Source: a virus
DNA: 31,867 bases
Strand: one strand, 5' to 3'
IMG/VR virus record: IMGVR_UViG_3300027796_000298
Location: 1 to 31,867 of that record
Position numbers and translations under genes: made by a program. Each line of letters begins with the position of its first letter. The stretch's first letter is position 1. Under the pieces are notes generated by a model, which was given only the letters and a program-made list of their open reading frames with translations, was not told the origin of the DNA and did no database searches. This document shows positions 2,098 through 3,643 of this stretch, one piece after another.

Positions 2098-2141
2098 CCC
2101 GCTAGGCCTCTTTACAATGCCCAAATGTAGCGGGTTTTTTT
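2098..2141 (+). terminator. Terminator-like hairpin pointing rightward, at the methyltransferase stop
   Basis: CCCGCTA (2098-2104) pairs with TAGCGGG (2128-2134) and is followed on the plus strand by a run of seven T. The hairpin includes the methyltransferase stop codon. The T-run is on the wrong side to terminate the leftward early operon, so it would block antisense rightward transcripts, or it may be a module-boundary relic. The loop of 23 bases is long. Confidence 0.35.
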
Positions 2142-2890
2142 ATGGGGCAAATTTTGTTAATTAAAATATTGAATGCTGTTGCCGCCACGATTGGAACTTG
2201 TCCGTTTCCAATGGCGCTAAATCTGTCCATGCCAAAGGCCACCCCATCGCCCATTCGTTCACCATCGGACTTAATCTCAAATTGTAATTTTTCATAAGCA
2301 AGTATGGCATAGAATTCAGCCTTCCTGAAAATTTGACTTTTTTGAGTTGGGCGACCTTGCACCTTAACTGTTGCGGGCTGCCGTCTGATTTTCGTGGAGT
2401 CGGAAGCCAAAATCCAAATTCGCTTTCGGTGGTGTGGCGCACCGCAATCGTCTGCGCCCAACACACACCATGTAGCATAATACCCCATTTCGGAAAGGTC
2501 TCCAAGCACTCGTCCAAGTCCGCGAATAGCGAGCATTGGAGAGTTTTCCACAAATGCGTAGCGGGGTCGAACTTCGCCAATGATTCTTGCAAATTCAGAC
2601 CATAGTCCGCTACGCTCGCCGTCGATTCCTGCGCCCTTTCCCGCAGAACTAATATCTTGGCAGGGGAATCCTCCGCAGACAATATCGACCTTTCCTCTCC
2701 AAGGGTTTCCGTCAAAGGTTCGCACGTCGTCCCAGATTGGAAATTTTGGCAAGATTCCATCGCGCTGACGTTGCAATAAAACTTGTCGGCAATAAGATTC
2801 AATTTCGACAGCACATACGCAGGTATGTCCGAGTAGCATACCGCCAAGGATTCCTCCCCCTGCTCCTGCAAATAAGTGTAGCTCATTCAT
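2102..2890 (-). CDS. DNA (cytosine-5) methyltransferase, phage Dcm type
   Basis: This 262-residue enzyme would methylate the C5 of cytosine in a specific DNA site using S-adenosylmethionine. Visible motifs are the N-terminal LFAGAGG loop (motif I, residues 6-12), G-G-F-P-C-Q with catalytic Cys77 (motif IV), E-N-S at 115-117 (motif VI, with Ser in place of the common Val), H-R-K-R-I-W (154-159, motif VIII) and G-N-G-Q-V-P (228-233, motif X). Only about 65 residues separate motifs VIII and X, so the target-recognition region is very short and the recognition site cannot be predicted. The ATG at 2890 has an AGGAGAT ribosome site and overlaps the upstream stop. Likely roles are protecting phage DNA from host restriction or pairing with the nearby HNH nuclease. 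A second open frame lies almost wholly inside this gene. Confidence 0.92.
   Translation of the reverse strand: MNELHLFAGAGGGILGGMLLGHTCVCAVEIESYCRQVLLQRQRDGILPKFPIWDDVRTFDGNPWRGKVDIVCGGFPCQDISSAGKGAGIDGERSGLWSEFARIIGEVRPRYAFVENSPMLAIRGLGRVLGDLSEMGYYATWCVLGADDCGAPHHRKRIWILASDSTKIRRQPATVKVQGRPTQKSQIFRKAEFYAILAYEKLQFEIKSDGERMGDGVAFGMDRFSAIGNGQVPIVAATAFNILINKICPIKKPATFGHCKEA
2161..2886 (-). CDS. Overprinted second frame within the methyltransferase gene; phage-family-like protein
   Basis: A 241-codon frame lies on the same strand as the methyltransferase gene, starting four bases after its ATG, so one ribosome site could serve both. It would normally be dismissed as a shadow, but its product resembles a phage protein family I recognise. 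Features are S-x-D-S/F-P-A near residue 70, F-D-P-x-T-x-x-W-K-T (106-115), a C-S-L-F segment, a P-x-W-G-x-M-x-x-G turn (132-140), W-L-P-T-P-R-x-S-D-G (160-169), and a tail with M-G-W-P-L-A-W-T followed by P-L-E-T-D-K-F. Such proteins are usually unnamed or loosely labelled methylase-associated. An internal Met at residue 43 is an alternative start. The function is unknown. The main alternative is that this frame stays open by chance and the family impression is an artefact. Confidence 0.5.
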   Translation of the reverse strand: MSYTYLQEQGEESLAVCYSDIPAYVLSKLNLIADKFYCNVSAMESCQNFQSGTTCEPLTETLGEERSILSAEDSPAKILVLRERAQESTASVADYGLNLQESLAKFDPATHLWKTLQCSLFADLDECLETFPKWGIMLHGVCWAQTIAVRHTTESEFGFWLPTPRKSDGSPQQLRCKVAQLKKVKFSGRLNSMPYLLMKNYNLRLSPMVNEWAMGWPLAWTDLAPLETDKFQSWRQQHSIF

Positions 2891-3296
2891 GTATCTCCTT
2901 TTTAAAGCCCTTCCAATGGTTGAGGTATCCGTGTATATTAACGATTCCGCGCTCGGCGTAGTGGTCATACATAAATTGCCCGAATTCCTCGAGCGACTCG
3001 AAGCCGTCTGCTTTTGCTAGGGCAATGCTTTCAAGTTTGCTTAACGTCCGACTGTCTAGTCGTATAACTATCCTCGCATAAGGATAAACCTCATAGGCGC
3101 TCCCACTGTAAAATACCTGCATGGGCTCGGAGCGCGTAGCTATCGCCGCCCCAAACTGCTTGCATTGAGGGGTGCGCCAACCAGTAAACATTTTGAGCGT
3201 CTCGCCCTCCTTAAAAGCTCTACGCCTAAACGTATGCGCCTTTAGCCCCGACTCGATAGCGGGGACGAATCCGTCTGCGAATCCTACCGCGCTCAT
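2883..3296 (-). CDS. ASCH/PUA-like domain protein
   Basis: A 137-residue protein whose first half has the phage ASCH-like layout: F-x-x-x-F-V-P-A-I-E-S-G-x-K (residues 6-19), H-T-F-R (21-24), a G-E-T turn, then M-F-T-G-W-R-T-P-Q-C (36-45). ASCH domains are PUA-related beta-barrels thought to bind RNA or modified bases; that role comes from the family and not from this sequence. The C-terminal half has a helical E-S-L-E-E-F-G-Q-F segment and a final aromatic/basic tail. It overlaps the HNH stop by ATGA, and its own TGA overlaps the starts of both the methyltransferase and the overprinted frame. Confidence 0.75.
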   Translation of the reverse strand: MSAVGFADGFVPAIESGLKAHTFRRRAFKEGETLKMFTGWRTPQCKQFGAAIATRSEPMQVFYSGSAYEVYPYARIVIRLDSRTLSKLESIALAKADGFESLEEFGQFMYDHYAERGIVNIHGYLNHWKGFKKEIHE

Positions 3297-3643
3297 TTAG
3301 CGTCCTTTCCAAAAACTTCAAAAAAGAATTTTTTAAAGGGCATTTCGATTACCATCTCGAACCTGCGCGCGGAGCGATAGATAAAGGATTTTTTAAGCCG
3401 TTCGTGCAGTGATTTTATAACCCCTCTAAATTGCTCCAAACTCAATGCGCCTTTGTAAAAGTTACATGAGCGGCAAGCGGGATTGAAGTTTTCTAATGTG
3501 TCCGCTCCAGATTTATATACGGGGTCGATATGGTCAACCTGCATGGTTTTTAGCGTCAGTTCGCACCCGCAATAAGCACATCGCCCAGAATATTTTTCCA
3601 AAACTTCTTGGCGCACTTTTTGAGAAATAGGCTTACGCTTCAC
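3293..3643 (-). CDS. HNH endonuclease
   Basis: This 116-residue free-standing HNH nuclease has C-A-Y-C (residues 22-25), the D-H-I core (37-39) followed by P-V-Y-K-S-G-x-D, and N-x-x-P-A-C-x-x-C-N-x-x-K-G (52-65). These provide two zinc-binding Cys pairs and the catalytic His/Asn. After the domain comes a basic, Phe-rich C-terminus of about 45 residues. The start codon is GTG at 3643, giving a GTGA overlap with the preceding stop. It acts on DNA; being next to an ASCH-like protein and a C5 methyltransferase suggests a modification-linked role, but a selfish or homing-type HNH is equally possible. Confidence 0.88.
   Translation of the reverse strand: MKRKPISQKVRQEVLEKYSGRCAYCGCELTLKTMQVDHIDPVYKSGADTLENFNPACRSCNFYKGALSLEQFRGVIKSLHERLKKSFIYRSARRFEMVIEMPFKKFFFEVFGKDAK

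Follow-up and report, generated by a model that had tools for sequence, protein, structure and literature searches.

Locus and start region

The window analyzed here is the whole of a 31,867-nucleotide stretch of viral DNA (IMG/VR record IMGVR_UViG_3300027796_000298, positions 1 to 31,867). On its minus strand lies a C5-cytosine methyltransferase open reading frame at 2102-2968 if the ATG at 2968 assigned by the open reading frame tool is taken; the ATG at 2890 is the likelier start, because of the spacing from its Shine-Dalgarno sequence and the evidence of homologues. The frame that runs from 2890 to 2102 is referred to below as alpha. A 241-codon, ATG-initiated frame, beta, is nested inside it on the same strand in the +1 register, from 2886 to 2161, exactly where the preliminary description of this DNA had placed a second open frame (Table 1).

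The start region reads AAGGAG-ATAC-ATGAATGAG, with a single Shine-Dalgarno sequence ahead of two ATGs that are 4 nt apart. The stop codon of the upstream gene (TGA, 2885-2883) overlaps the beta ATG. Among distinct homologous loci, 57 of 88 also had an ATG at +4 from the alpha start position. In several members that are without the N-terminus, internal Met43 of beta is the first ATG.

Table 1. Positions of the two overlapping frames, their motifs and their start region in the window
Feature	Positions	Strand	Basis
Alpha: C5-methyltransferase, proposed large-domain subunit, 263 codons including stop	2102..2890	-	PF00145, phrog_363, Shine-Dalgarno spacing, homologues
Alpha motif I, FAGAGG	2855-2872	-	
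Alpha motif IV, PCQDIS	2648-2665	-	
Alpha motif VI, VENS	2540-2551	-	
Alpha motif VIII, GAPHHRKRIW	2414-2443	-	
Alpha motif X, AIGNGQVP	2192-2215	-	
Beta: proposed nested +1-frame subunit, 241 codons, putative target-recognition region and motif IX	2161..2886	-	
Beta residues 43-157: conserved extension over alpha catalytic region (FDPxTxxWKT, PxWGxMxxG)	2416..2760	-	
Beta residues 158-204: variable LPTP-type region, putative target-recognition region	2275..2415	-	
Beta residues 205-222, LSPMVNEWAMGWPLAWTD: motif IX	2221..2274	-	hhalign chain, lowest beta dN/dS
Start region	2883..2901	-	Shine-Dalgarno AAGGAG (about 2895-2900), alpha ATG 2890-2888, beta ATG 2886-2884

The methyltransferase shares its minus-strand gene block with a ResIII/DEAD helicase and an AAA-domain protein. 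Two genes upstream of it, a small minus-strand ORF (3293-3643) has a CAYCG...DHIDP...N...C..CN pattern that looks HNH nuclease-like by eye. On the plus strand, the sole Rfam match in the window was an abiF RNA (RF03085, 2098-2135, 44.4 bits against a gathering threshold of 37), which faces the 3' end of the methyltransferase gene and has a T-run after it. Possibly the phage carries a copy of this defence-linked small RNA; no such RNA was found at 20 related methyltransferase loci searched.

Occurrence of the two frames in phages and bacteria

A methyltransferase-led search of viral contigs, which was blind to beta, yielded 80 loci. In most of them beta was open over nearly the whole methyltransferase, and the third frame usually contained many stops; in a more distant group (among L089-L100), beta was retained only in a more downstream portion. 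Beta-led searches of viral and bacterial contigs found a methyltransferase overlapping in the +1 register at 121 of 121 loci, with betas that have no N-terminal start under-sampled because the scan pattern was taken from the beta N-terminus. When these data were pooled, an overlapping beta was present in all 186 of 186 distinct alpha ORFs, and the register was cleanly +1 in 183. Many of the loci are metagenome contigs. At one locus (L223), beta matched in short stretches only. Partway along the overlap, an apparent indel exchanges the frames of the two chains in L221 and L086, which may reflect either assembly error or decay.

Stand-alone betas of the nested type were not found in the viral and bacterial contig searches. 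The preliminary description had regarded a lack of homologues away from methyltransferase genes as grounds for rejecting the second gene. Such a lack is what we observed for nested beta, yet the gene is not thereby refuted, because beta is probably a piece of the methyltransferase and is hence located on it.

Among Pseudomonas species, 21 of 299 genomes had a match to the beta profile. Distant beta matches in Pseudomonas genomes (L323-L326 and L328) again lay on frames of distant methyltransferases, which suggests that the arrangement extends beyond the close family. In a betaproteobacterial metagenome-assembled genome (L187, 1426-2215), the alpha frame has a stop straight after motif VIII, with motif X next in the same frame, and the beta frame reads through where the alpha frame stops. 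Certain variable-region cassettes of beta, such as GRLDEWGGSSNPFR, were seen by eye to recur in phages of different hosts (e.g., L002, L009, L017 and L020), as if recognition modules had been exchanged.

Relationship of beta to methyltransferase C-terminal halves

Four sequence blocks previously attributed to the second frame are all present in beta, as FDPATHLWKT, PKWGIMLHG, WLPTPRKSDG and MGWPLAWT, and its proposed membership in a widespread phage family agrees with our searches: the window beta matched phrog_1008 (E 1.7e-16), as did 20 of 20 aligned betas, and beta was found by tblastn in 61 phage records. Alpha matched PF00145 (E 3.5e-34) and phrog_363 (E 1.3e-63). In the database search of both frames that had been proposed, beta matched no Pfam or NCBIfam model, HNH included.

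The relatives of beta suggest that it belongs to the same enzyme. In Mycobacterium phage Zimmer, gp81 contains motifs I-VIII and then ends, and gp80, which overlaps gp81 in the +1 register, contains the beta-like blocks FSETFPTSGTMRAG, LLPTASARDHKG and RFSEWMMGWDEGWVTD, followed by motif X. Sebastisaurus gp34/gp35 and RedFox gp42/gp43 are likewise split methylases. In gp17 of Mycobacterium phage prophi104-2 and gp72 of Mycobacterium phage Tweety, all motifs occur within one frame. Matches to phrog_1008 were obtained with the window beta, with its Paenibacillus phage Shelly counterpart SHELLY_56, with the C-halves of split enzymes and with single-frame methyltransferases, in the latter over the C-terminal half (residues 209-412 of prophi104-2 gp17, E 9.5e-63); phrog_363 and phrog_116 matched these single-frame enzymes along their length.

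Direct hhalign comparison of beta with canonical methyltransferases gave its best alignment on motif IX at E 0.3, equal to the reversed control. Homology of beta to canonical enzymes consequently rests on a two-step chain. In the first step, the alignment of the beta profile with the C-halves fell exactly on LNPxWVEWLMGWPxGWT (E 1.6e-10; none of eight column-shuffled controls was better than 0.3). In the second step, the C-halves aligned to canonical methyltransferases over motifs IX-X, with RRLTPRECARLMGFPDTF as the partner segment (E 1.2e-4 in a single-pair search). This chain implies that beta carries motif IX. Two AlphaFold models of beta alone had low confidence (mean pLDDT 57 and 62) and gave no usable match to solved structures; Foldseek against viral models returned a few low-TM matches, one of them named as a methyltransferase.

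Beta could alternatively be a separate partner with another job (an inhibitor, regulator, nuclease or anti-restriction protein) that was overprinted on the methyltransferase. Consistent with this idea, its N-terminal 160 residues had no recognized homologue outside the family, searches of Pfam, NCBIfam and solved structures being empty. However, the beta C-terminus matches the very motif that alpha is without, and single-frame methyltransferases are matched over their C-terminal half by the beta family profile; we consider a separate partner very unlikely. An unrelated overprinted phage protein was set aside in favor of a methyltransferase small domain once the split and single-frame relatives had been read. 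The phrog_1008 matches to single-frame and two-gene phage enzymes do not support the earlier view, in which overprinting of a dcm-type gene would by itself have produced a separate partner. Part of that view stands, in that the upstream part of beta is probably overprinted, whereas the C-terminal core is, by the two-step profile evidence, the small domain of a C5-methyltransferase in another frame.

Division of motifs and constraint between alpha and beta

Alpha has the features of a C5-methyltransferase (the PF00145 match, motif I, the PCQ loop of motif IV, and motifs VI and VIII), but motif IX, expected of a single-chain enzyme, is missing from it. The division recurs across the family: the motif IX pattern was found in 0 of 89 alphas and 64 of 89 betas, and the motif X pattern in 68 of 89 alphas and 0 of 89 betas. 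We place the putative target-recognition region in beta residues 158-204, because they lie between motifs VIII and IX and because split relatives hold the equivalent region in the C-half chain.

The selection profile tracks this domain boundary, alpha being relaxed where beta is constrained. In 21 disjoint pairs, alpha dN/dS was 0.04-0.33 over motifs I-VIII and 0.12-0.29 at motif X, with higher values across the recognition region (0.60-0.76) and in the region of motif IX (0.44-0.59). Beta dN/dS was 0.37-0.47 over the recognition region and reached its lowest values, 0.22-0.30, at motif IX. Upstream of motif VIII (alpha codons 86-147), beta dN/dS was 0.29-0.44.

These upstream values bear on programmed frameshifting, by which ribosomes translating alpha would shift to the beta frame once past motif VIII and produce a fusion with the recognition region and motif IX. 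N- and C-halves do overlap in different frames in some actinophage relatives, and single-frame relatives hold both halves in one chain. Nevertheless, purifying selection on beta upstream of motif VIII argues that beta uses its own start and disfavors frameshifting as the sole route to it; moreover, most loci have the separate beta ATG described above, and an alpha-beta fusion would be without motif X. Frameshifting therefore appears very unlikely.

Selection on the second frame

The beta frame evolves like a protein-coding gene under purifying selection and is kept in many phages and bacteria. A second frame of this length rarely arises by chance on such a gene. When synonymous codons were shuffled within the methyltransferase, at least 241 open second-frame codons occurred in 5 of 20,000 trials (median 99), and when the gene was recoded with the codon usage of the window, they occurred in 0 of 5,000. 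The same relative frame in nine other genes of the window (280-839 codons) had at most 108 open codons. Most other C5-methyltransferases drawn from Pseudomonas genomes had 6-35 stops in the frame equivalent to beta; the exceptions, with 2-3 stops (L347 and L350), both already held a distant beta according to the beta profile.

In 52 sequences less than 70% identical, the beta frame contained 63 stops, whereas shuffling of synonymous codons within each sequence predicted 301±11 (Z -21.7). Identity between sequences was 0.327 in beta against 0.232 expected, and 0.277 against 0.222 expected in the third frame, which has the same ancestry as beta. At 70-90% protein identity, differences at 4-fold sites were 0.19-0.26 in the methyltransferase loci versus 0.40-0.48 in terminase genes, the latter taken from other phages.

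The control that we rate best is internal, and uses homologues in which beta is closed at its ends. Differences at 4-fold sites numbered 24/59 where beta is closed at the 5' side, 7/24 where it is closed at the 3' side and 16/304 where it is open (Fisher 1e-11 and 5e-4 for the 5' and 3' contrasts, disjoint pairs); a comparison over all pairs likewise gave relaxed synonymous constraint where beta is closed. Thus, within the same genes, synonymous change was about 8-fold lower with beta open than with beta closed (5% versus 41%). OLGenie-style estimates of two-frame dN/dS were 0.34 and 0.28 for beta and 1.6 and 1.2 for the third frame; the class of changes synonymous in both frames is small, which makes single ratios rough, and their direction was consistent. 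In the closed 5' part the beta SN/SS ratio was 0.96, and the first 38 codons of beta were under weaker constraint than the remainder. The analysis of synonymous sites in aligned homologous loci, which the preliminary description had put forward as a check, therefore revealed protein-level selection on beta on top of that on the methyltransferase.

It is extremely unlikely that conservation of the methyltransferase protein and its codon usage alone explains why beta is open and appears conserved: some beta motifs do overlie conserved alpha residues (e.g., MGWP over DGVA), but alpha-preserving shuffles, the stops in this frame of most other Pseudomonas enzymes and the relaxed synonymous constraint where beta is closed all contradict such a shadow-frame artefact, as do the third-frame and terminase controls.

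Proposed enzyme and its possible origin

Computational comparison shows that both frames are conserved, that motifs IX and X are split between them and that beta is homologous at motif IX to methyltransferase C-halves. The two overlapping frames very probably specify a C5-cytosine methyltransferase made of two subunits, an enzyme of the M.EcoHK31I type, in which beta is predicted to be translated, to form a heterodimer with alpha and to recognize the target. Alpha would act as the large catalytic domain and contains motifs I-VIII and X, including the Pro-Cys-Gln catalytic loop. The small domain would come from beta, which would supply target recognition and motif IX behind an N-terminal extension lying over the alpha catalytic region. 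Both chains would be made from neighboring start codons of a single mRNA, beta 4 nt after alpha and with a shared Shine-Dalgarno sequence, and would bind each other, beta placing alpha on its DNA target. The enzyme may act as an orphan phage methyltransferase that shields phage DNA from restriction.

The existence of single-frame, split and nested forms suggests an order of origin. The C-terminal half of a single-frame enzyme may have come to lie in the +1 frame and then extended upstream over the catalytic region, after which alpha may have acquired motif X in its own frame. Overprinting would then probably hold for the upstream part of beta and perhaps for the motif X end of alpha, the core of the family being the enzyme's own domain. 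We are somewhat inclined to a broader view, that a large phage C5-methyltransferase family carries both domains on the same DNA (catalysis and motif X in alpha, recognition and motif IX in beta), that it descends from a single-frame enzyme via split forms, and that its recognition cassettes are exchanged as units that have to remain readable in both frames.

The GenBank record of Paenibacillus phage Shelly lists beta (SHELLY_56) as "g55 internal gene". In the phage records inspected, mostly one frame is annotated, alpha in most and beta in some, and actinophage records list the split pairs. We found no paper in the open-licence literature describing the dual coding, its spread or its selection. 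Annotation of one frame implies that half an enzyme may be missing from many records, and orphan phage methyltransferases assayed as alpha alone could appear dead. In addition, these findings suggest a likely role for a common phage family labeled "hypothetical" or "DNA methyltransferase". The locus also represents a long, whole-gene, same-strand overlap conserved over many phages, in which selection can be measured against natural internal controls that few overlapping genes offer. With single-frame, split and nested forms all available, the steps by which an overlapping gene arose can be tested one at a time.

Comparison with known systems

In M.EcoHK31I, too, beta is reportedly encoded in an alternative frame within alpha. 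M.EcoHK31I (YGGCCR; Lee, Kam & Shaw 1995, as cited in PMC3404938) is a natural two-polypeptide C5-methyltransferase with motifs I-VIII and X in the large subunit and motif IX in the small subunit (PMC3404938), and the motif split is the same as here. Its recognition domain was predicted in the large subunit (PMC3404938), whereas selection and split relatives favor beta in the present case. Furthermore, M.EcoHK31I is part of a restriction-modification system, whereas the window locus looks like an orphan phage gene. M.AquI is also one enzyme made from two chains. However, its small subunit contains motifs IX-X together with a portion of the variable region (PMC3404938), whereas here motif X is found in alpha and the overlap of the genes is almost complete.

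A second protein out of frame within a phage methylase gene has been described for the hidden HNH endonuclease of the ShiLan insertion (PMC11855218). That protein is encoded by a patchy mobile insertion, in contrast to the whole-gene overlap in all 186 alphas and the absence of an HNH match in beta. The phrog_1008 family, annotated "DNA methyltransferase", and SHELLY_56 belong to the same family as beta, with no function or subunit role given in those records. The actinophage split methylases of Zimmer, Sebastisaurus and RedFox resemble the window locus in pairing a catalytic half with a C-half that matches phrog_1008, in overlapping +1 frames in Zimmer and Sebastisaurus, but their C-half also holds motif X and their overlap is partial or absent.
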